In this document: piece by piece, positions 1,204 to 32,213 of the stretch
Numbering within the stretch: position 1 is the first letter of the stretch
Layout of the letters: each line of letters begins with the position of its first letter
Origin: Streptosporangiales bacterium
Lineage (GTDB): Bacteria; Actinomycetota; Actinomycetes; Streptosporangiales; Streptosporangiaceae
Length of the DNA: 39,198 bases
Assembly (NCBI GenBank): GCA_009380095.1
Contig: WHSL01000030.1
Location: forward strand, 1 to 39,198
Direction: 5' to 3'
The notes under the pieces: model-generated
What the model saw: only the letters and a program-made list of their open reading frames with translations
What the model was told of the DNA's origin: nothing
Databases searched by the model: none
Translations under genes and position numbers: made by a program

Positions 1204-2085
1204 ATGCCGATGATCCAGAACACATACACAGAATCGATCTTGAATTGGTACGTGGCCCACGCTCGTGATCTTCCGTGGCGGTCCCCCGAGGCCTCGCCCT
1301 GGGCCGTCCTGGTCAGCGAGATCATGCTGCAGCAGACGCCGGTGGCGCGCGTACTCCCCGCGTACGAGGCGTGGATGAAGCGCTGGCCCACCCCCGCCGA
1401 CCTCGCCGCCGAACCGTCCGGCGAGGCGGTCCGCCAGTGGGGCCGGCTCGGCTACCCCCGGCGCGCGCTCAACCTGCACGCCATCGCCCGCGCGGTGACC
1501 GAACGGCACGATGGCACGCTGCCGTCGGACCACGAGCAGCTCCGCGCGCTGCCCGGCGTGGGCTCCTACACCGCCGCCGCCGTGTCCAGCTTCGCGTTCC
1601 GGCAACGACACGCGGTGCTCGACACCAACGTCCGCCGTGTCTTCGCCCGGCTGATCTCCGGCGTCGAGTATCCGGCCAAGGCCAAAACCGCCGCGGAGGA
1701 GCGGCTGGCGGTCAGCCTCCTGCCGGACGACCCGGAGACCGCCGCCCAATGGGCCGTCGCCGTCATGGAACTCGGCGCCCTGATCTGCACCGCCCGCTCG
1801 CCAAAGTGCGCGGACTGTCCGGTCTACGACAAATGCGCCTGGCGCCTAGCCGGCAAGCCACCGTACGACGGCCCACTCCGCAAGGGCCAGAGCTACGCCG
1901 GCACCGACCGGCAGTGCCGGGGCCGCCTGCTGGAAGTGCTGCGCCACGCCGAAGGCCCCGTCCCCAAGACCGCCCTGGACGCGGTCTGGGACGAACCGAT
2001 CCAACGCGAACGCGCCCTCGACGCCCTCATCGCCGACGGCCTCATCGACCCCCGCGACGACGGAACCTACGCGCTCCCGCACTGA
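1204..2085 (+). CDS. mutY: A/G-specific adenine glycosylase MutY
   Basis: MutY removes adenine mispaired with 8-oxoguanine and starts base excision repair. The 293-residue protein shows the family marks in order: the EIMLQQTPV segment with the catalytic Glu near residue 39, the helix-hairpin-helix LPGVGSYTAAA (about 117-127), the catalytic Asp in LDTNVRRV, and a C-x6-C-x2-C-x5-C iron-sulfur loop (CTARSPKCADCPVYDKC). It lacks the C-terminal NUDIX-like domain of E. coli MutY, which is usual for short actinobacterial forms. I start at the ATG at 1204 because GGAG at 1193-1196 is spaced 7 bases from it; the next ATG (1210) is an alternative. The NACHT gene follows 50 bases downstream on the same strand, so the two may share a transcript. 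Confidence 0.95.
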   Translation: MPMIQNTYTESILNWYVAHARDLPWRSPEASPWAVLVSEIMLQQTPVARVLPAYEAWMKRWPTPADLAAEPSGEAVRQWGRLGYPRRALNLHAIARAVTERHDGTLPSDHEQLRALPGVGSYTAAAVSSFAFRQRHAVLDTNVRRVFARLISGVEYPAKAKTAAEERLAVSLLPDDPETAAQWAVAVMELGALICTARSPKCADCPVYDKCAWRLAGKPPYDGPLRKGQSYAGTDRQCRGRLLEVLRHAEGPVPKTALDAVWDEPIQRERALDALIADGLIDPRDDGTYALPH

Positions 2086-2135
2086 CGCACGGAATAATCC
2101 AGGCGAACCGTCGCCTCACGGAAGCGGACCCCCAC

Positions 2136-4772
2136 GTGAGTGACATCGCCCTCGCCGTCGGCGCAGCGGTCGTCAAGGTCGCCACCAAGGTCTGGCTCGG
2201 CGCGCCGCCGGCGAGCAGCGTCGGCGACGCGGGCGTCGACACGGTCACCGAGGTGATCAAGGGCCGTGTAGCCGGGCGGCTGGAACAGCGGCGGGTACGG
2301 CGCCAGTTCGAGCACCTGGAGGAGACGGTCGCCGGTCGCGTCCTCGCCGTGCTGGGCCACGAGTTCGCCGACGTCCCGGAGAACGAGCGCGAGGCGGCGG
2401 TACTGGCCGTCGCGGACACCTTCGACGCGTCCCGCCTGCACGACACCGAGCTGTACGCCCAGGACCTGGACCCGCTCTACCTGGAGCGGCACATCCGCGC
2501 GACCACGCCGATCCGGGTCCGCGACCTGAGCCCCGGCGCGGTGGCACTCTTCGACCGGGTCCTCGCCGAGTGCTGCACGTACGTGATCCTGCTCTCCACG
2601 GCCCTCCCCACGTTCAACGCCGCCGCCTTCACCGAGATCCTGCGCCGCGAGCGCACGCTGATCGAGAAGGTCGACGAACTGCTCGCCCGGGTCCCGGAGC
2701 CGGACACCGGCGACACGGCGGCCGCCGAGTTCGGCACCGCCTACCGCAGGCACCTCATGGCCCGCCTGGACCGCCTCGACCTGTTCGGCGCGGACGTCCG
2801 CACCCGCCGCTATCCGCTCACGCTCGCGTACGTCGGCCTGAACGCGATCTCCGGCACGCCCGCCGCCGCCCGAGATCCGGGCCGCTCCGCCGGGGACGCG
2901 GGAATCCAGGAGACCCTCGCGTCCACCCGCCGGCTACTGCTGCGGGGCAACGCCGGCTCAGGGAAGACGACGCTCCTGCAGTGGCTGGCCGTACGCGCCG
3001 CCGGGCGCGACTTCCCGCTCCGGCTCGAGGCCTGGAACGACCACGTGCCCTTCCTGATCCGGCTGCGCGAGTACGTCGACCGGGGCCTCCCCTCGCCGGC
3101 CGCCTTCCTCCGCAGCTCAGGGCGGCACCTGCGCTATGCCATGCCGGAGGGCTGGGTGGAGGAGCTGCTGAACTCCGGCCGGGCGCTGGTCCTGGTCGAC
3201 GGGGTGGACGAACTACCCGAACGGAAGCGTCCCGCCGTACGGCGCTGGCTCCGCGACCTGGTCGAAGACTTCCCCGCCGCCCGCTACGTGATCACGTCCC
3301 GCCCGGCCGCCGTCCGGGAGGGCTGGCTGGACGACGACGGCTTCACCACCGCCGAGCTCGCGCCCATGGGGCCGAGCCAGATCCGCGGCTTCATCGAGAA
3401 CTGGCACGCAGCGGTCCGCAGCGAAATCGTGGACGTCGAGGAACACGAACGTCTCGACCGCTACGGCTCACCGGCACGCGGCGCCGCTTGCTCCTCCGCG
3501 AGCTCGCCCACTGGCTCATCCGCAACGATCTCTCCGACGCCGAGAGCGACCGGGCCGCCGCACACGTTCGAGGAGTATCTCGCCGCCCGGGCCATCATCG
3601 ACCAGGACCGCATCGGCATGCTCATCGACAAGGCGGCGGACGACCAGTGGCGCGAGGTCATCGCGATGGCCGCCGGGCACGCCACCACCGCCACCCGCGA
3701 GGAGCTGATCACCGGCCTGCTGGACCGTGCCGACACGGAGGCACCGCGCCGGCTCCGGCCCAAGCGCCGGCGGTCCGGCCAGGCGGGCCTCGAGGCGCGC
3801 ATCCTCATCACGGCGCTCGCCTGCATGAGGAACACCCGGCAGCTGAGCGAGGCGCTCTCCCGGCGGCTCTCCGTCCAGGCCGCCGGCGTCGTCGTCCCGC
3901 CGGAGTCGGACGAGCACGCGCAGGCCCTGGTCAGCGCCGGCGAGTTCGGGCTGGATCTGCTCCTCGGGAGCCCGGGCCGGTTCCAGCCGGGCGACCTGGC
4001 CCGTACGGTCCAGGTCGCCGCCCGGATCGGCGGTCCGCGCGCGTTCGGGCTGATCGAGGAGGTGACCCGCGAGCTGGCCGAGAAGGGGCCGCGGTTCGCC
4101 TCGGGAATGTACGAGCCGGAGATCCTGCACGCGGTGCGCTCGGCGTGGACCGCGTTCGATCCGGAGGAGTACGCGGCGGGCGTGCTGTCCGGCACGGTGT
4201 TCGGCGAGTCCCTGGCGGTCGCCGACCCGTCGCTGATCGCGGCGCTGCGCCTGGTGGACGGCCTGACCTCGCTGAGCGTCGAGTGGCGTGGCCGCTGGTT
4301 CCGCCACGTCGAGCCCGGCCGCCTGGGTCGCGCCACGGACGCGCTGGCCGACATCGGGGAGCTGTCCGGCCTCCGTTCGCTCTCCCTGGAGTGGCTCCCC
4401 TCCGATCTCGACCTCTCCCCGCTGACCGGGCTCACCGGCCTCCGCGAGCTGCTGCTGGACGGCATCCACTCGGCCCGGCTGCGCCCCGTGGCGGCGCTCG
4501 CCTCACTCGAACGGCTCGCGCTCTGCCTGTCCGACTCCGGCACCAGGCCCGACCTCAGCCCGCTGGACCGACTGCCCGCGCTGCGCCGCCTCGTCCTGTT
4601 CGGCCGGCGCGACTACGACGTGCGCTCCATGACCGGATCCCCCGGGCTCACCATCGTGGTCTCCCCCGAGGCCACCCTCAGCGGCGAGGAGAGACTGCAT
4701 CCCGAGGTCGTCGTCGACCGATCCCAGGGCCTGCGATCCGCCCCGGGGGTCCCCAGCGTCAACTGGACGTGA
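2136..4772 (+). CDS. NACHT-type STAND NTPase with C-terminal leucine-rich repeats, apparently internally deleted
   Basis: The 878-residue reading frame starts at GTG 2136 (GGAAG at 2120-2124). The N-terminal ~260 residues are helical, as in the NACHT N-terminal helical domains of actinomycetes. The NTPase follows: Walker A GNAGSGKTT (about 271-279), Walker B LVLVDGVDELP (about 350-360) and the sensor strand RYVITSRPAA. The C-terminal ~130 residues contain leucine-rich repeats (LxxLxxLxL, about 742-840). Bacterial NACHT proteins are known antiphage NTPases. Something is wrong at 3465-3562: the frame reads low-complexity Ser/Pro/Ala sequence, while the +2 frame there reads a typical NACHT helix (LLLRELAHWLIRND then LSDAESDRA) before this frame resumes with HTFEEYLAAR. 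Residues normally lying between these blocks are absent. I infer two deletions whose frame effects cancel. The product is probably defective unless the sequence is in error. Confidence 0.75.
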   Translation: MSDIALAVGAAVVKVATKVWLGAPPASSVGDAGVDTVTEVIKGRVAGRLEQRRVRRQFEHLEETVAGRVLAVLGHEFADVPENEREAAVLAVADTFDASRLHDTELYAQDLDPLYLERHIRATTPIRVRDLSPGAVALFDRVLAECCTYVILLSTALPTFNAAAFTEILRRERTLIEKVDELLARVPEPDTGDTAAAEFGTAYRRHLMARLDRLDLFGADVRTRRYPLTLAYVGLNAISGTPAAARDPGRSAGDAGIQETLASTRRLLLRGNAGSGKTTLLQWLAVRAAGRDFPLRLEAWNDHVPFLIRLREYVDRGLPSPAAFLRSSGRHLRYAMPEGWVEELLNSGRALVLVDGVDELPERKRPAVRRWLRDLVEDFPAARYVITSRPAAVREGWLDDDGFTTAELAPMGPSQIRGFIENWHAAVRSEIVDVEEHERLDRYGSPARGAACSSASSPTGSSATISPTPRATGPPHTFEEYLAARAIIDQDRIGMLIDKAADDQWREVIAMAAGHATTATREELITGLLDRADTEAPRRLRPKRRRSGQAGLEARILITALACMRNTRQLSEALSRRLSVQAAGVVVPPESDEHAQALVSAGEFGLDLLLGSPGRFQPGDLARTVQVAARIGGPRAFGLIEEVTRELAEKGPRFASGMYEPEILHAVRSAWTAFDPEEYAAGVLSGTVFGESLAVADPSLIAALRLVDGLTSLSVEWRGRWFRHVEPGRLGRATDALADIGELSGLRSLSLEWLPSDLDLSPLTGLTGLRELLLDGIHSARLRPVAALASLERLALCLSDSGTRPDLSPLDRLPALRRLVLFGRRDYDVRSMTGSPGLTIVVSPEATLSGEERLHPEVVVDRSQGLRSAPGVPSVNWT
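3465..3562 (+). other. Double-deletion scar in the NACHT gene
   Basis: Upstream of about 3470 the family-like sequence (VEEHERLDRYG) is in the gene's main frame. From about 3478 to 3558 it is in the +2 frame (LLLRELAHWLIRND and LSDAESDRAA). From about 3561 it is back in the main frame (HTFEEYLAARAI). In intact NACHT proteins these three blocks are separated by winged-helix sequence, including a segment resembling LATNPLLCxLLCALHR and an MPxxxxxAxxVFxxLLERSGLLREP-type segment. Neither is found here. The junctions therefore look like two deletions, the first shifting the frame and the second restoring it. Confidence 0.65.
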
Positions 4773-21770: not shown

Positions 21771-21858
21771 CCCAGAAAAATTCAGGGGAAGGATTATGCG
21801 GGTGCGACCTGCAGGAACGCCAACAAGATCCTTCCCCCAAATTGTGGGTCCTGGGTCA
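21771..21858. repeat. Palindromic interspersed element, copy 2, after the coaX stop
   Basis: The arms CCCAG (21771-21775)/CTGGG (21851-21855) and GGGGAAGGAT (21785-21794)/ATCCTTCCCC (21828-21837) enclose the core GCGACCTGCAGG (21804-21815). The core, the TCCTTCCCCC run, the A/T-rich AAATTGT stretch and the GGGTCA end correspond in order to the element at 12550-12650. As there, the outer end coincides with a stop codon (coaX TGA at 21858-21856). It probably terminates the coaX operon. Confidence 0.7.
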
Positions 21859-22635
21859 GGTGTTGCGTTCGTAGATGAGGCGGAGGCCGATGAGGGTGAG
21901 CCAGGGTTCGTGGACGTCGATGCTGCGCGCCTCGTCCACGACCAGCGGGGCGAGGCCTCCGGTGGCGACGACCTTGACGTCCTCGGGGTCGTCGGCGAGC
22001 GCCTCAGCCATCCGTTCCACGATCCCGTCGACCTGGCCGGCGAAGCCGTAGATGACCCCGGACTGCAGGCCCTCCACCGTGTTCTTGCCGATCACGTGCC
22101 GGGGCCGGGTCAGCTCGATCTTATGCAGCTGCGCCCCGCGGCGGGACAGCGCCTCCACCGAGATCTCGATGCCCGGGGCGATGGAGCCGCCCACGTACTC
22201 GCCGCGCTTGCTGACCGCGTCGAAGGTGGTGGCGGTGCCGAAGTCGACGACGATCGCCGGGCCGCCGAAGAGGTGCACCGCGGCGAGCGTGTTGACGATG
22301 CGGTCGCTGCCCACCTCCTTGGGGTTGTCCATGCGGACCGGGACGCCGGTCTTCACGCCGGGCTCGACGATCACCGCGGGCACGTCGCCGTGGTAGCGAC
22401 GGGACATCTCCCGCAGCTCGTGCAGCACCGACGGGACGCTGGAGCACAGCGCCATGCCGCTGATCTCGGTCTTGGACAGCACCGTGGACTGGGCGAACAG
22501 GCCCTGGTAGAGCACGGCGAGCTCGTCGGCCGTACGGCGCGCTTCGGTCGCCACCCGCCAGTGCTCGATCAGCTCGTCCCCCTCGAACAGGCCGAGCACC
22601 GTGTGCGAGTTGCCGACATCGATGGTGAGCAGCAT
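21856..22635 (-). CDS. coaX: Type III pantothenate kinase CoaX
   Basis: CoaX phosphorylates pantothenate, the first step of coenzyme A synthesis from pantothenate. The 259-residue protein has the ASKHA-type phosphate motif at the N-terminus (LLTIDVGNSHTVLGLFEGD), the second motif VVDFGTATTFDAV and the adenosine-site ATGGLAPLV. ATG 22635 overlaps the TGA of the nadB-nadC fusion by one base (TGATG), so translation is coupled. The operon therefore ends panC, nadB-nadC, coaX. The palindromic element follows the stop directly. Confidence 0.96.
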   Translation of the reverse strand: MLLTIDVGNSHTVLGLFEGDELIEHWRVATEARRTADELAVLYQGLFAQSTVLSKTEISGMALCSSVPSVLHELREMSRRYHGDVPAVIVEPGVKTGVPVRMDNPKEVGSDRIVNTLAAVHLFGGPAIVVDFGTATTFDAVSKRGEYVGGSIAPGIEISVEALSRRGAQLHKIELTRPRHVIGKNTVEGLQSGVIYGFAGQVDGIVERMAEALADDPEDVKVVATGGLAPLVVDEARSIDVHEPWLTLIGLRLIYERNT

Positions 22636-25376
22636 CAGGCCTCCGCAGCGCCCCTCAGGTCGAGTGCGATGTCCAGCGCCGGAGCCGAGTGGGTCAGCGC
22701 GCCGACGGCAAGGTAGTCCACCCCGGTCTCGGCCACATCTCGAGCCTCTTCCAGGGTGAGACCGCCGCTGGCCTCCAGCCGGGCCCGGCCGGCCACCAGC
22801 TCCACCGCCGCCTGTAGCTCCGGCACTGTGAAGTTGTCCAGCAGGATGTCGGTGGCGCCCTGGACGAGCACGGGCTCGATCTGGTCGATGCGATCCACCT
22901 CGACCTGCACCGGCACGTCCGCCCCCGACGCGCGGACCGCCCGGTACGCCTCCGCCACCCCGCCGGCCGCCAGCACGTGATTGTCCTTGATCAGCGCGGC
23001 GTCCGACAGCGACATGCGGTGATTGGTGCCGCCGCCGCAGCGCACCGCGTACTTCTGCAGCACGCGCATGCCGGGGACGGTCTTCCGGGTGTCGCGGATG
23101 ACCGCGCCGGTGCCCTGGACGGCGTCGGCCCAGCGCCGGGTGGCCGTGGCGACGCCGGAGAGCAGGCCGAGCAGGTTGAGCGCGGTGCGCTCCGCCTCCA
23201 GCAGCGTCCGGGTCTCCCCGGTCACGCTCATCAGTACGTCGCCGCGGCGCACCCGGGCGCCGTCGGCCACGTGCCGGACGACCTTGGCGCGGCCGCGAGA
23301 GGTGCGCGCGAACACCGCCGCGGCCACCGGCAGGCCGGCGACCACGCCGCCGGCCCGGGCGACCAGGTCGCCGGTCGCGGTGTGCCCGGCCGGGATGGTG
23401 GCGCGGCTGGTCAGGTCGCCGGCCTCCCACACGTCCTCGTCGAGCGCGGCCGCGACGGTGGCGGCCACCGCGTCGGCGTCCAGCCCGGCGGCGCGCAACG
23501 CCTCCGCGGTCTCCGCCGGCAGCCATCCGGCACCGACTCCGTCCGGCTCGGCGGCACGCGGTTCCGCGTCCTGCGGCTCGGCGGCGTGCGGCCCGGCATC
23601 GCGCGGCCCGGCATCGCGCGGCCCGGCATCGCGCGGCCCGGCATCGCGCGGCCCGGCGGCGTGTGGTTCGGCGGTGCCGTGCACCTCCTCACCGTGGTGG
23701 TATCGCACGGCCAAATCTCCCGTCGTGAGCAGTTCGATCGCGACGTGACCGCGGTGGTGCACGTCGTCGGTGCCGGGGTGGTCCTCGCGCCAGTGCGTCC
23801 CCCGCGTCTCCCGGCGGCGCAGGGCGGCCGCGGTCAGCGCGGTGGCCACGGTCAGCAGGTTCGTGTCCTCCCACGCGCGGACGCCGGGCCCGCGGGTGGC
23901 GGGCCGCGCGCGCAGCGCCGCCAGCTCCTCTTCCGCGCGGACCAGGCTGCGCTCCCCGCGCAGCACGCCCGCGTGCGCGCTCATCGCCGCCTGCGGCTCG
24001 GCCCGGTCGAACCCGGCGAACAACCCGGCCGGTCCGGGAGGCGCCGCGAGCCCGGCCGGCCCCGTAGGCGGCGCGGGCTCGACCGGTCGTGGAGGAGCCG
24101 CGGGCTCGGTGGGGCCGGGCGTGGGCCCGTCGGCCAGGACGGCGGCGATCCGCTCGGCGAAGACCAGCCCCTCGAGCAGCGAGTTGGACGCCAGCCGGTT
24201 GGCGCCGTGCACGCCGGTGCAGGCGACCTCGCCGCAGGCGTACAGGCCGGGAACGGACGTGGCGCCGTGCAGGTCCGTACGGACCCCGCCACTGGCGTAG
24301 TGCGCGGCCGGCACCACCGGGATCGGCTCGGTCACCGGGTCGATGCCGTGCTCCCGGCACGTCGCGAGGATCGTCGGGAACCGGGACCGCCACATCTCCG
24401 CACCGAAGTGCCGCGCGTCGAGCCCCACATGCGGCGCGCCGGTCTCCAGCATCACCCGGGTGATGGCGCGCGCCACCACGTCCCGCGGCGCCAGGTCGGC
24501 GAGCTCGTGCACGCCCTCCATGAACCGCCGCCCGTCCGCGTCGATCAGGTACGCCCCCTCGCCGCGCACCGCCTCCGAGACCAGCGGCTGCTGTCCGGTC
24601 GCGTCCGCGCCGAGCCACAGCACGGTCGGGTGGAACTGCACGAACTCCAGATCCTGTACGACCGCGCCGGCGCGCAGCGCAAGCGCCACCCCGTCGCCGG
24701 TGGAGACCGGAGGGTTGGTGGTGGCGGCGAACACGTGGCCGAGGCCGCCGCTGGCCAGCACCACCGCGCGGGCCCGTACGGCCCCGACCCCGTCGGTGGC
24801 GCCCTCGCCCATCACGTGCAGGGTGACGCCGCGCACCCGGCCGTCCGCGTCGAGCAACGCGTCCAGCACCAGCGCGTGCTCGATGACCTCGATCTCCGGG
24901 CGGGCCCGTACGGCCGCCACGAGCGCGCGCTGGATCTCCGCACCGGTGGCGTCGCCGCCCGCGTGCGCGATGCGCCGCCGGTGGTGCCCGCCCTCGCGGG
25001 TCAGCTCCAGCTCGCCGGCGGCGTCCCGGTCGAACGCGGTGCCGAGCGCGATCAGCCGCCGTACGGCGGCCGGGCCCTCGGTGACGAGCACCCGTACGGC
25101 CGTCTCGTCGCACAGCCCCGCCCCGGCTTCGAGCGTGTCGCGCAGGTGGTCCTCGGGGTCGTCGTCCGGCGCCAGCGCCGCCGCGATGCCGCCCTGGGCC
25201 CAGCGCGTGGACCCGGCGTCCAGCACGTCCTTCGTCACCACGAGCGTGTGCAGCCCGGCGCGCGCGCAGGCCAGCGCCACGGTGAGCCCGGCGATGCCGG
25301 ACCCGGTCACCACCACGTCGGCGGCACGGCTCCACCCCGGCTCGGGCGCGAGCAGCCTGCGCGGCACCTGGGACAT
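22635..25376 (-). CDS. nadBC: L-aspartate oxidase fused to quinolinate phosphoribosyltransferase (NadB-NadC)
   Basis: The 913-residue protein joins two enzymes of de novo NAD synthesis. Residues ~15-555 are NadB, which oxidises L-aspartate to iminoaspartate: FAD-binding VVTGSGIAGLTVALACARAG, STRWAQGGIAAAL, EGGHHRRRIAHAGGDATG, VQFHPT, and the late FAD motif GLYACGEVACTGVHGANRLA. Residues ~625-913 are NadC, which makes nicotinate mononucleotide from quinolinate: EDVWEAGDLTS, RDTRKTVPGMR, QKYAVRCGGGTNHRMS, LIKDNH, LEASGGLTLE. The two are joined by a linker (about 570-610) with repeated AGPRD units. ATG 25376 has GGAG 9 bases upstream and follows the panC stop by 3 bases. NadA, needed between the two reactions, is not in the window. 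Confidence 0.95.
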   Translation of the reverse strand: MSQVPRRLLAPEPGWSRAADVVVTGSGIAGLTVALACARAGLHTLVVTKDVLDAGSTRWAQGGIAAALAPDDDPEDHLRDTLEAGAGLCDETAVRVLVTEGPAAVRRLIALGTAFDRDAAGELELTREGGHHRRRIAHAGGDATGAEIQRALVAAVRARPEIEVIEHALVLDALLDADGRVRGVTLHVMGEGATDGVGAVRARAVVLASGGLGHVFAATTNPPVSTGDGVALALRAGAVVQDLEFVQFHPTVLWLGADATGQQPLVSEAVRGEGAYLIDADGRRFMEGVHELADLAPRDVVARAITRVMLETGAPHVGLDARHFGAEMWRSRFPTILATCREHGIDPVTEPIPVVPAAHYASGGVRTDLHGATSVPGLYACGEVACTGVHGANRLASNSLLEGLVFAERIAAVLADGPTPGPTEPAAPPRPVEPAPPTGPAGLAAPPGPAGLFAGFDRAEPQAAMSAHAGVLRGERSLVRAEEELAALRARPATRGPGVRAWEDTNLLTVATALTAAALRRRETRGTHWREDHPGTDDVHHRGHVAIELLTTGDLAVRYHHGEEVHGTAEPHAAGPRDAGPRDAGPRDAGPRDAGPHAAEPQDAEPRAAEPDGVGAGWLPAETAEALRAAGLDADAVAATVAAALDEDVWEAGDLTSRATIPAGHTATGDLVARAGGVVAGLPVAAAVFARTSRGRAKVVRHVADGARVRRGDVLMSVTGETRTLLEAERTALNLLGLLSGVATATRRWADAVQGTGAVIRDTRKTVPGMRVLQKYAVRCGGGTNHRMSLSDAALIKDNHVLAAGGVAEAYRAVRASGADVPVQVEVDRIDQIEPVLVQGATDILLDNFTVPELQAAVELVAGRARLEASGGLTLEEARDVAETGVDYLAVGALTHSAPALDIALDLRGAAEA
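23581..23670 (-). repeat. 15-bp tandem repeat encoding the NadB-NadC linker
   Basis: Four perfect copies of GCATCGCGCGGCCCG (23596-23655) are flanked by diverged copies (23581-23595, 23656-23670). Further degenerate relatives reach back to about 23551. On the coding strand each unit encodes Ala-Gly-Pro-Arg-Asp. Copy number is likely to vary between strains by slippage without breaking the frame. Confidence 0.9.
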
Positions 25377-25379
25377 GGG

Positions 25380-26249
25380 CTATCGCTCCAGCGTCAGCGG
25401 GACGTTGTCGATCAGCCGGGTGGCGCCGACGCGGGCCGCGACGACGAGCAGGGCGCGCCCCCGATGTTCCGGCGTGACCTCGGCGAAGCTATCGGGGTCG
25501 ACGAGGCCGAGGTAGTCCACGGCCAGGGGTGGCCGCGCCCGGGCCGCCTCGTCCAGCACCGCCCGCCCGGCCGCGAGCACGGCCGCGGGCCCCTCGGCAG
25601 CCGCGGACTCACCCGCGCGCAGCGCGCGGGACAGCGCCAGCGCGGTCTCCCGCTCCTCCGCGGACAGGTACCGGTTGCGGCTGGACAGCGCGAGGCCGCC
25701 GGGCTCCCGTACGGTCGGCACGCCCTCGATGCGGACCGGCACGTTCAGGTCGCGGGCCATCCGGCGGATCATCGCCAGCTGCTGGCCGTCCTTCTGGCCG
25801 AACAGCGCCACGTCCGGCCGGACCAGGTTGAGCAGCTTGAGCACGACGGTGAGCACGCCGTCGAAGTGACCCGGCCGGTGCGCGCCCTCGAAGACCGCGC
25901 CCATCGGGCCGGAGGAGACCGTGACGACCTGCTCGTCCGGGTACATGACGTCCACCGAGGGGACGAAGGCAGCGGCCACGCCCTCCTCCCGGCAGATCTC
26001 CAGGTCGGTTTCCAGGGTGCGCGGGTAGCGCTCGAAGTCCTCTCCCGGGCCGAACTGCCGCGGGTTCACGAAGATGCTCACCACGGCCGCGCCGGCCAGC
26101 TCCCGGGCGCGGCGGATGAGCGCGCGGTGGCCCTCGTGCAGCGCGCCCATGGTGGGGACGAGGGCGACCGTACGGCCGTCCGCGCCGAGCTTGGCGCGTA
26201 CGGCGTCCAGCTCGGAGATGTCGTGGGCGAGGAGCACCGGACCGGTCAT
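25380..26249 (-). CDS. panC: Pantothenate synthetase (pantoate-beta-alanine ligase)
   Basis: PanC condenses pantoate with beta-alanine using ATP. The 289-residue protein has the HIGH-type nucleotide motif in [11 protein letters not shown], the [18 protein letters not shown] segment, [16 protein letters not shown] and the KMSKS-like [15 protein letters not shown] 26249 overlaps the stop of the upstream DUF2520 reductase gene (ATGA). The usual actinobacterial neighbour panD (aspartate decarboxylase, source of beta-alanine) is absent between panC and nadB. Confidence 0.97.
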
Positions 26250-27154
26250 GGTCGTCCTCCGTTCAGCACGCCGAGGAGCCGTTCCGCGGCCTCCGGCGCG
26301 AGCAGACCGGCGGCAAGCGCGCGGTCGGCGGTGAGCCGGGCGAGGGCCACGTACGCGGCGCGCGCCTCGGGCGAGACGCGGCCGAGCTCCGCGAGGTGCT
26401 CCGCCACCGTGCCCGCGTCACCGCGCACCACCGGGCCGGTCAGCCCGGAGATGCCCAGCCGCAGGCCGTTGTCGAGCGCGGCGCCGAGCAGCGGGCCGAG
26501 CATCCGGGACGGGTTCTCCACGCCGGCCGCGCCGAGCAGCTCCGCGGCCTCCGCCACCAGCGTCACCAGGTGGTTCGCGCCGCCGGCCAGGGCCGCGTGG
26601 TAGAGCGGGCGGTTCTCCTCGGCGATCGTCACCGGCTCGCCGCCCATCTCCACGACGAGCGCCTGGGCCACGGGCAGCAGCGGCTCGGGCGCGGTGACGC
26701 CGAAGGAGGTGGCGGTCAGCCGGTTCAGGTCCTCCGGCCGGCCGGTGAAGGTCATCACGGGGTGCAGCGCCAGCGGGAGGGCGCCGCGCCGGGTGGCAGG
26801 TTCGAGGACCTCGGTGCCGTGCCGGCCGCTGGTGTGCGCGAGCAGCCGGCCCTCCAGCTTCACCTCGGTGGCCACCAGCCCGTCGATGAGCGGGGACAGC
26901 GCGTCGTCCGGGACGGTGAGCAGCACCAGGTCGGCGGCCTCGACGACGCCGCGCTCCGGCAGCACCTGCGCGGTGGGGAGGCGCTCGGCGATGCGCTCCC
27001 GGGAGGCGTCGCTGACCCCGGACGCGGCCACGACCGTGTGCCCGGCCTGGGACAGCGCCGCGCCCAGCGTGGCGCCGACGCGTCCGGCGCCGACCACGCC
27101 GACGCGCAGCCGGCCGGGGCGGTCGGTGGTCTCCGATGGTGGATTCGGTCGCAT
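26246..27154 (-). CDS. Rossmann-fold/DUF2520 oxidoreductase, possible PanG-type ketopantoate reductase
   Basis: The 302-residue protein has an NAD(P)-binding Rossmann domain ([22 protein letters not shown], about 17-38) and a C-terminal helical DUF2520 domain with [14 protein letters not shown] and [19 protein letters not shown]. Its orthologue is conserved upstream of panC in actinobacteria (Rv3603c-like). A family of this architecture, PanG, was shown in Francisella to replace PanE as ketopantoate reductase. The position as first gene of a panC operon makes the same job here attractive, but this is inference. ATG 27154 is the start, with a weak GGA upstream. Confidence 0.88.
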
Positions 27155-30302: not shown

Positions 30303-32213
30303 TCAGGCCTGCTGAGGGGTGGCGGCGTCTTCTCCTACGGTGGCCTGGGCGGCCCAGCGTTCGGGGGGTGCCTCGGCTGTGCGTGATCGTCGCATGTGTT
30401 CGGCGACGGCGTCGACCATCCCGCGGGCGTCTCCGGAGGGGCGGCCTGGGGCGGAGACGTCCACCGGGCCTGGGGGTACGTCCACGTGGACGGTCGCGGT
30501 GCCGCGGCGGCGTTGGAGCGGGCCGCTGGTGAGGCGGACGCTCTGGGCACGGCCGTGGGAGGCGATTTCCACGTAGCGGCAGAAGCGGCCGTGGCGGGAG
30601 ACGAACACCGCCGCGTCCAGGCCGGCCGTACTTTGGCCCATCCGCACCGGGGTGTCCAGGAGGCGCTCGGCGACTTCGGCCCCGCCGGGGAACAGGACGT
30701 TGAGGAGGCCGAACGCCACCGGACGTGGGGCGGCGGGGAGCATCATCGCGGTCGCCATCTGGCGGTCGCCCACGTATCCCGCGACGTTGACCTCCAGGCG
30801 GACGAGGCCGAGGCCGCGCCAGAGCAGGGGCTCGGTGACCCGTACGGCCTGGACGCGCCGGGGCGGCACGGTCTGCATGCGCGTCTCCAGCAGGCCGCGG
30901 CGGACCCGCAGGCCGTCCGGTGAGACCGCGACGACGAAACCGCCCTGGGTGAACATCGGGCCCACGAAGCCGCGCAGCAGTCCGAGCAGCAGGGGTACCG
31001 CGGCGCCGAGCACGCCCGGCTCCGCCATCACGATGCCCACCGCGAGCAGTGCGGCGAAGCCGAACACGGACGCGAGCACCGGCACCCGTAGCAGCAGGCC
31101 GCCGAGCAGCATCCCGGCGGGCACCCGGAAGAACGTGCGTTCCGGCGCCTCAGGCGAGGAGCCGGACAGGCCGGCGGCGCGGGCCAGCAGCGTGGCGCGG
31201 AGGCGGTCGGCGTCGCGCTGCCCGAGGTACCGGAACACGATCTCCGCGCGGTCTCCGCCGGCCAGTTCGAGCCGGACTTCCGCCAGCCCCAGGAACCGGA
31301 TCACCAGCGGGCGTACCACGTCCACGGCCTGCAGGCGGGACAGCGGGATCTGCCGGGACCGGCGGACGAACGGACCGCTCTCGTAGATCAGGTCGTCTCC
31401 GACGATCTTGAACCGCACCTCCCACCAGGAGGCGAACGCGAACGCCAGTGCGAGCACGCCCACCGGCAGGATGACGAGCCCGAGCACGGAACGCTCGAAC
31501 TCGAGCAGGGCCACGCCGGGCACCGCGAGGAACACCAGGACGATCACCATTGCGCGCAGCGGAGCGGTCATCCAGTGCATGCGGTGCACGCCGAGCTCGA
31601 AGTCGGGGCCGGGGTCGGCGGGCGGGGGCGGTGCGGGCGGCGGGACCGGGGGCCGTACCGGCGGCGGGGGCGGACCCACCATCGGCACAGGCGGCGGATA
31701 CAGCACCGGCCGCATCCCCTTCGGCGGATTCACCGGAGCCGTCTGCCGATACTGCGGCTGCCCGCCGTGCGCATATCCGGCCTGCCCGGGACCGCCCGGC
31801 CCGGGACCGCCCCAGCCATAACTGCCCGGCGCAGGACCTCCTTGACCGTAGCCACCCGGGCGAGGTCCACCGTGAGCGTAACCGCCCGATCCAGGTCCGC
31901 CCTGACCGTAGCCCCCAGGCCCGTGACCGCCCTGACCGTAGCCCCCAGATCCGTGTCCGCCCTGGTCATAGGCGCCCGATGGGCTTCCCCCGTAGGAGTT
32001 TGCACCCTGTGGATGGGGGCCTGGAGGGCGGGATTGGTCGGCGGGCAGCGGATGGGCGGGCCGGCCCCACCCTCCGGCGGGCGTTCCGAGCGGTGCCCCG
32101 GTGGGCGCCCCGGGCGGGTCCGGCGGCGGGCGGAGGGCCACCGGGCGGGCGCCGGGGAGCGCCTGGTCCGGCGGAACCATCGGGGGGCCCTCGTACGGCG
32201 GCAGGTCGTTCAT
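30303..32213 (-). CDS. Multi-pass membrane protein with bacterial PH (bPH2, YdbT-like) domains
   Basis: The 636-residue protein has a disordered Pro/Gly/Tyr-rich N-terminus (1-~200) with GGYGQGG repeats. Two hydrophobic hairpins follow (about 210-265 and 355-405), each followed by a bPH2 domain (first RFKIVGDDLIYESGPFVRRSRQIPLSRLQAVDVV, second VVAVSPDGLRVRRGLLETRMQTVPPRRVQAVRV). A third partial bPH2-like region (about 540-600, SRHGRFCRYVEIASHGRAQSV) is near the C-terminus. Such YdbS/YdbT pairs are of unclear function, with suggested envelope-stress or lipid roles. ATG 32213 overlaps the TGA of the upstream PH gene by one base (TGATG), so the pair is co-translated. Confidence 0.9.
   Translation of the reverse strand: MNDLPPYEGPPMVPPDQALPGARPVALRPPPDPPGAPTGAPLGTPAGGWGRPAHPLPADQSRPPGPHPQGANSYGGSPSGAYDQGGHGSGGYGQGGHGPGGYGQGGPGSGGYAHGGPRPGGYGQGGPAPGSYGWGGPGPGGPGQAGYAHGGQPQYRQTAPVNPPKGMRPVLYPPPVPMVGPPPPPVRPPVPPPAPPPPADPGPDFELGVHRMHWMTAPLRAMVIVLVFLAVPGVALLEFERSVLGLVILPVGVLALAFAFASWWEVRFKIVGDDLIYESGPFVRRSRQIPLSRLQAVDVVRPLVIRFLGLAEVRLELAGGDRAEIVFRYLGQRDADRLRATLLARAAGLSGSSPEAPERTFFRVPAGMLLGGLLLRVPVLASVFGFAALLAVGIVMAEPGVLGAAVPLLLGLLRGFVGPMFTQGGFVVAVSPDGLRVRRGLLETRMQTVPPRRVQAVRVTEPLLWRGLGLVRLEVNVAGYVGDRQMATAMMLPAAPRPVAFGLLNVLFPGGAEVAERLLDTPVRMGQSTAGLDAAVFVSRHGRFCRYVEIASHGRAQSVRLTSGPLQRRRGTATVHVDVPPGPVDVSAPGRPSGDARGMVDAVAEHMRRSRTAEAPPERWAAQATVGEDAATPQQA
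31820..31975 (-). repeat. 30-bp repeats coding a Gly-Tyr-rich tail
   Basis: About five units with a period near 30 bp (core CCTGACCGTAGCCCCCAG on the plus strand) encode GGYGQGGPG-type repeats in the cytoplasmic N-terminus of the YdbT-like protein. The tail resembles low-complexity, phase-separating sequences, but this is only a resemblance. Confidence 0.7.

Follow-up and report, generated by a model that had tools for sequence, protein, structure and literature searches.

Introduction

One open reading frame (ORF) can give rise to more than one protein. Phage endolysin genes yield two polypeptides per gene through an in-frame internal start, and these products have been shown experimentally, according to the available parts of PMC9430671; likewise, going by the available text of PMC11899642, Cas11b is a further product of one gene by in-frame internal translation. 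Here, we describe a gene, ‘nadBC’, in which L-aspartate oxidase (NadB) and quinolinate phosphoribosyltransferase (NadC) are joined in one frame. It lies on a contig of 39,198 nucleotides (WHSL01000030.1; ‘the window’, at its full length) from a Streptosporangiales bacterium of the family Streptosporangiaceae (assembly GCA_009380095.1). That the fused gene also makes free NadC by internal initiation is, in our judgement, the likeliest reading. It would then resemble the endolysin genes described in those parts of PMC9430671 in having one ORF, a common stop and a shorter C-terminal product from an internal start. It differs from them in being metabolic, in that its start is a candidate identified by comparison, and in that this start would bring back a separate gene that the fusion had removed. 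The Cas11b gene of PMC11899642, in the portion seen, is, unlike nadBC, not a fusion of two pathway enzymes. In-frame internal starts are already known, then; what is new here is a fused metabolic gene that appears to have regained a separate start.

The unfused genes are familiar: ‘nadB-nadC’ occurs as an operon name in the accessible portions of PMC3828012 and PMC6800001. The second of these describes, in that portion, a nadA-nadB-nadC operon of Mycobacterium smegmatis under the control of NrtR. The same pathway genes are present in the window’s genome, and an NrtR-like gene too, beside nadA; unlike the M. smegmatis operon, nadA stands apart and nadB and nadC are fused. The fusion is not reported in the available parts of PMC7455551 or PMC4217691, and no work with a NadB–NadC fusion as its topic was found among the titles and abstract openings of the open-licence literature, of which coverage was partial. 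Sequence databases already hold such genes, so that at most the description of the fusion, not its existence, is new.

The NadB–NadC fusion

The nadBC ORF occupies positions 22635–25376 of the minus strand, and runs for 913 codons from an ATG start with no internal stop. Residues 2–558 (23703–25373, minus strand) are the NadB part, matched over the whole domain by NCBIfam PRK07804 at 812 bits against a curated cut-off of 639. Residues 641–906 (22659–23456, minus strand) are the NadC part, matched by TIGR00078 at 289 bits against 198. Pfam finds FAD_binding_2, Succ_DH_flav_C, QRPTase_N and QRPTase_C in the same ORF. One open frame, in short, encodes a complete NadB and a complete NadC, as an earlier note on this DNA, made from the letters alone, had supposed in calling it a natural in-frame fusion. 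No other full NadB–NadC match occurs in the genome; three partial ones, of 31–38% identity, lie on another contig (C100), and the NadC family model matches just once in the whole genome.

The expected catalytic residues are present in both parts. We take the catalytic residues of Escherichia coli NadB to be H244, R290, H351 and R386. Aligned by eye to structure 1CHU, the NadB part has H249, R298, H359 and R394, which are invariant in 36 fused proteins. The active-site residues of Mycobacterium tuberculosis NadC are, presumably, R105, R139, K140, H161, R162, K172, E201 and D222. Aligned by eye to 1QPN, the NadC part has R730, R764, K765, H786, R787, K797, E826 and D847, again invariant in 36 fused proteins. 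An AlphaFold2 model, for which 36 fused proteins served as input, consists of two confident folds and a disordered joint (mean predicted local distance difference test score, pLDDT, 80.4; predicted template modelling score, pTM, 0.63). We infer that nadBC is translated in full into a protein that carries both enzymes, linked by a flexible joint.

A candidate internal start for free NadC

Fused genes of what we term ‘Streptosporangiaceae proper’ have in common an in-frame start codon that precedes the NadC fold by some tens of codons and is itself preceded, at the usual distance, by a stretch like a Shine–Dalgarno (SD) sequence. The candidate in the window is the GTG at 23706–23708 (minus strand), Val557 of the fusion, which maps in the model to the last strand of NadB (residues 555–560). 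The SD-like motif GGGAG (23717–23721, minus strand; duplex energy −7.4 kcal/mol) precedes it, separated from it by 8 bases. Among the 66 in-frame start codons of the ORF this GTG has the third best SD. Its site lies at the 10th percentile for messenger RNA (mRNA) folding, and in synonymous rarity the preceding six codons (ACG ACG GGA GAT TTG GCC) come 10th among 908 windows of the ORF.

In 86 aligned fused rows of Streptosporangiaceae proper, among which the window is counted, the corresponding codon is ATG in 71, TTG in 13, GTG in one (the window) and CTG in one (L213), a start codon in 85 of 86. In 84 of the 86, the duplex with the anti-SD sequence reaches −5 kcal/mol or better. The median SD energy is −8.1 at 38 sites, whereas for the 252 other ATGs within those NadB parts it is −2.9. 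An ATG stands at the junction in 46 fused rows, and in 25 of them it outranks every other ATG of its ORF in SD strength (ORFs have about 10). Our first site finder required Met, Leu or Val and was, for that reason, biased; in later alignments the site is placed by the alignment instead. Rows fetched after the idea arose, with the site so placed, have a start codon in 46 of 49 fused Streptosporangiaceae proper (ATG 36, TTG 10). Two of the three exceptions, L192 and L208, look like alignment shifts, and show ATG in a later alignment; L213 is a true exception. For this follow-up, 40 regions were picked by hand among the matches listed, passing over genera known as ‘Nocardiopsaceae-type’, a related fused group, so that the 46 of 49 speaks only for Streptosporangiaceae proper. 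Twenty further regions were picked for short NadC frames, and 12 of the 85 loci in the follow-up alignment, being repeats of earlier rows, were dropped. At the same site, none of 24 new unfused rows of the family has a start codon, and 17 of the 24 have a Thr codon; GTG occurs there in two of the 71 unfused rows of the earlier set, most of which are Streptomyces and whose alignment is less certain.

The codons around the site are unusual in ways that the protein does not dictate. When GC content at third codon positions (GC3) is scanned across the 86 rows, the lowest six-column windows lie at the start of the downstream gene, coaX, and the next lowest at the candidate site; isolated columns of low GC3 are also present in other places. 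Just ahead of the site, Gly is encoded by GGA in 51 of 84 rows, versus an average of about 6%, and the next best Gly column reaches 25 of 86; on the tree this Gly codon changes 14 times, much as others do (mean 15.6). Predicted mRNA folding is weak at the site: expressed as a percentile within the ORF, the median is the 7th at 40 sites, the 49th at 266 other ATGs and, where the genes are separate, the 1st at 48 inferred starts of nadC. For 32 nadB genes that are not fused, the ten windows of lowest GC3 fall at the start and the end of nadB and, more weakly, at residues 34–40 and 69–75. The dip at the end starts beside the homologous codon and extends downstream, into the region of the nadC site, unlike that of the fused rows, which precedes the codon. 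The sites used for SD energy, early codon use and folding include three rows of an independent fusion (L145, L146 and L148). In the folding and codon tests, L038 and L092 had their site assigned manually to a GTG, where the 86-row alignment gives an ATG with a weak SD. Two features that would be expected of a two-product gene with an internal start are found here: a conserved start codon at SD distance, and selection acting there on synonymous positions or on the structure of the mRNA, SD energy alone being without synonymous excess.

Two lines of evidence were discarded. SD energy does not stand by itself, as it follows from the encoded amino acids. Conservation of TTG (12 of 12) is circular, the rows having been chosen for bearing TTG, and adds little; no other column among 72 with invariant Leu in these rows is all TTG, the codon never varies in 41 of the 72, and TTG makes up 1.6% of their Leu codons.

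In a separate family of the class (f13), in which nadB and nadC were fused independently, a start codon also occurs near the equivalent place in the NadB tail (ATG in L145, L146, L147 and L148; GTG in L162), in few rows.

Spread and origin of the fusion

The earlier note had proposed a survey of nadB/nadC fusions in actinomycetes, and the fusion proved common. From 61 genomes drawn from the family, NadC was found in 57. Fusions account for 39 of these 57, the window included; 16 have separate genes, and two, near contig ends, are undecided. A scan of named species found both parts in 79 of 80 loci, 30 fused and 49 separate; since the query was the fusion and the best 80 were kept, the fused share is not a rate. 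Outside the family, 20 genomes were picked for long NadC frames among the matches listed, and in six of them NadC is fused in frame with NadB. In the other 14 it is not, because GC-rich frames stay open by chance, and the length of an open frame was rejected as proof of fusion.

A tree was built from 143 rows, of which 68 are fused and 75 separate. Along its branches the fused or separate state changes at least six times, three of these changes being forced by well-supported branches. The window falls, on a long terminal branch (0.49), within a clade of 56 exclusively fused rows (Shimodaira–Hasegawa-like approximate likelihood ratio test, SH-aLRT, 99) that comprises 36 Streptosporangiaceae proper, a group of 19 that holds Nocardiopsis, and the window itself. 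The tree is a quick LG+G4 one with no mixture model; it leaves out four partial loci (L094, L137, L138 and L142), seven duplicate fused loci, one locus without nadC (L079), and three that gave no nadB call (L134, L135 and L141). Further fusions occur in the families f13 (five rows) and f34 (one row), which belong to the same class, and in six Streptomyces, which we take to be verticillate species for the most part. Judged from these comparisons, the fusion is old and ordinary for the window’s family, and a sizeable group of actinomycetes from soil has it in common.

Separate genes indicate how it could have arisen. Paired nadB and nadC of Streptomyces and of Actinomadura-type organisms (panC-nadB-nadC-coaX) encode the same enzymes in the same order, with similar neighbours, but as two ORFs; the window has one, and no start is left where nadC once began. 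The start of nadC overlaps the stop of nadB in 48 of the 79 loci with separate genes, as GTGA in 37 and ATGA in 11, and the ribosome-binding site of nadC lies within the end of nadB. The precursor, we propose, would have been such an adjacent pair with touching ends, in a panC-nadB-nadC-coaX cluster, in which a small change at the GTGA or ATGA overlap would be enough to fuse the two. The simplest view is of a single fusion event in a common ancestor of Streptosporangiaceae proper, of the Nocardiopsaceae-type group and of the lineage of the window. The fused ORF of the six Streptomyces still contains the former nadC site, which is AAGGAG or GAGGAG followed by GTG.

Two observations stand apart. 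The two records named Streptomyces griseocarneus disagree: JCM 4580 is fused and strain 132 separate (L021 and L048), for which strain naming may be at fault. And one genome of the family with a fused nadBC (G025) has, on contig 1, a second NadC frame (L141), beside which no NadB was found.

A fusion possibly undone in part at translation

In Streptosporangiaceae proper, a ribosome-binding site and start codon would lie hidden in the codons for the last strand of NadB. The nadBC mRNA would then yield both NadBC and, by internal initiation, free NadC, restoring the separate nadC start that fusion removed and allowing more NadC than NadB to be made, or mixed oligomers to form. We rate at about even the chances of the following history: that, once nadB and nadC had fused in the ancestor of the clade, a new ribosome-binding site and start codon arose within the last strand of NadB in Streptosporangiaceae proper, that NadBC and free NadC may co-assemble, and that the fusion, partly undone at translation, was kept in this form across the family. 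Taken jointly with a single origin and an internal start, the identification of the window’s gene as a bifunctional NadB–NadC gene seems to us rather probable. Of the single product of about 95 kDa that the earlier note anticipated, the one open frame stands; that it is the only product is not assured, since the junction bears a conserved internal-start signature in Streptosporangiaceae proper.

Enzyme fusions are usually taken to mean one joined protein, with joining as the point; if internal initiation is real, such readings need care. The loci described here range, besides, from genes that touch, through a fusion that retains the old nadC start and one with a new start, to one without a clear start, a natural series that bears on how operon neighbours turn into a single gene.

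Alternative explanations

Several observations weigh against internal initiation. The window’s own site is weaker, a GTG with only GGGAG before it. L213 has CTG, and the SDs of L038 and L092 are weak (−4.9). The 86 rows belong to one clade and are not independent. The dip in unfused nadB genes lies beside the homologous codon, which makes that control close in place. SD energy is ordinary for the amino acids encoded (median synonymous p 0.50, not clearly lower than at other ATGs, p 0.08). The Nocardiopsaceae-type genes, moreover, show no GC3 dip at the junction: in their 19 rows, the ten lowest windows are all near the coaX start. Seven of these rows are without a junction start of SD better than −5 and one, L113, is without any; five have a junction start with an SD of −9 or better. 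As this group of fused genes is without the signature, free NadC is no general requirement of such genes.

Three of these points, the ordinary SD energy, the related group without the signature and the GTG of the window, favour a plain fusion that makes full-length NadBC only. On this explanation, the start-like motif would be a by-product of the residues of the last strand (E-E-G-x-x-M). The amino acids do not, however, set the GC3 dip, the excess of GGA or the weak folding, all of which resemble those of true starts, and in 17 of the 24 unfused rows of the family the residue is encoded by Thr codons. We regard a plain fusion as possible but doubtful.

An SD-like signature with rare codons, much like the one seen, could also come from a programmed translational pause where the two domains meet, and this, too, tells against internal initiation. 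The stretch would slow ribosomes between NadB and NadC and so aid folding, without serving as a start. Rare codons (GGA, GAA and ACA) and an SD-like motif are indeed found at the border. A pause leaves unexplained, though, why a start codon should stand at SD distance in nearly every row, and why the mRNA should be weakly structured there; we consider it an improbable but credible alternative.

A scaffold for NadA is very improbable. NadB and NadC flank the NadA step of the pathway, and the earlier note suggested that joining them could keep NadA nearby, hold the three enzymes together and shield unstable iminoaspartate. NadB and NadC share no metabolite, however, and nadA is unlinked, being on a different contig (C404) from nadBC; origin from touching neighbours, furthermore, suffices without NadA. 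No NadA match was found in the 80 named loci, with the flanks examined, and the suggestion, which thus finds no support at the window or the named loci, was set aside. NadA matches are present near four unfused loci of the family (L119, L125, L130 and L138).

That the fusion is an artefact of assembly or sequencing, as an assembly in 413 contigs and a repetitive joint might lead one to suspect, can be dismissed as having a negligible chance, for the same fusion recurs in many other genomes and genera and the exact repeat spans only 60 base pairs (bp).

The linker and its repeat

Between the two confident folds, residues 565–614 (23535–23684, minus strand) are predicted to form a disordered linker, with pLDDT below 50 and about 31 at its middle. 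It contains four exact 15-bp units, each encoding AGPRD (23598–23657, minus strand), within a degenerate array that covers 23544–23658. Tandem Repeats Finder, run on the window, reports the array at period 15, with 7.7 copies and 86% matches. Identity of the linker at a lag of 15 is 0.81, which none of 5,000 codon shuffles reached, the best attaining 0.61. Since the unit is a multiple of three, gain or loss of units would preserve the frame. The window’s genome is the only one that a search of its genus found.

The earlier note had made this slippage-prone repeat the joint between the domains. The repeat is present, but its role as the joint is not supported: compared by eye, none of the other linkers examined contains the AGPRD unit, and the repeat was set aside as an essential joint. 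Sphaerimonospora thailandensis has a different, six-residue repeat at the equivalent position, and the linker of L034 has a proline-rich one. Measured between aligned ends, linkers are 15–63 codons long (median 30) in 36 rows of Streptosporangiaceae proper, 34–106 (median 67) in the 19 Nocardiopsaceae-type rows and 80–124 in the six Streptomyces; that of the window is 80. Because it is absent from the other linkers examined, we take the AGPRD repeat as a local expansion, probably a recent and neutral lengthening of the joint.

A second in-frame repeat, of 27 bp in 3.2 copies (24024–24109, minus strand), encodes a Pro/Ala-rich insertion within NadB, where the model is of low confidence (residues 419–430 and 433–447). 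The insertion sits between the FAD domain and the C-terminal helices.

Neighbouring genes and other repeats

The order of the cluster in the window is DUF2520-panC-nadBC-coaX, all on the minus strand. At its head is a Rossmann-like/DUF2520 protein (26246–27154), followed by pantoate-beta-alanine ligase, panC (25380–26249), each identified by profile matches. The gene for type III pantothenate kinase, coaX (21856–22635), comes last, its ATG overlapping the nadBC stop by one base. In the named loci, coaX is downstream of nadC in 79 of 79, and panC is just upstream as well in 20 of the 30 fused and 43 of the 49 separate ones. On its own contig (G000:C404, locus L005), nadA (1474–2505, minus strand) is divergent from an ORF at 2547–3275 of the plus strand that we named, by eye, as a gene for an NrtR-like Nudix regulator. 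Regulation of the pathway may be split, with nadA beside the NrtR-like gene and nadBC within the pantothenate/coenzyme A cluster.

Tandem arrays occur elsewhere in the window. A scan similar to that for the linker (lags of 9–45 in steps of 3, at least 90% identity over 60 bp) finds one other array, at 96–178, whose period is also 15 bp. It lies at the window edge, where a 15-bp array of 8.5 copies (81–209) adjoins an ORF, the later part of which presumably resembles A/G-specific adenine glycosylase. At positions 31604–31964, GC-rich tandem repeats are densely packed and overlap one another, their units ranging from 6 to 60 bp.

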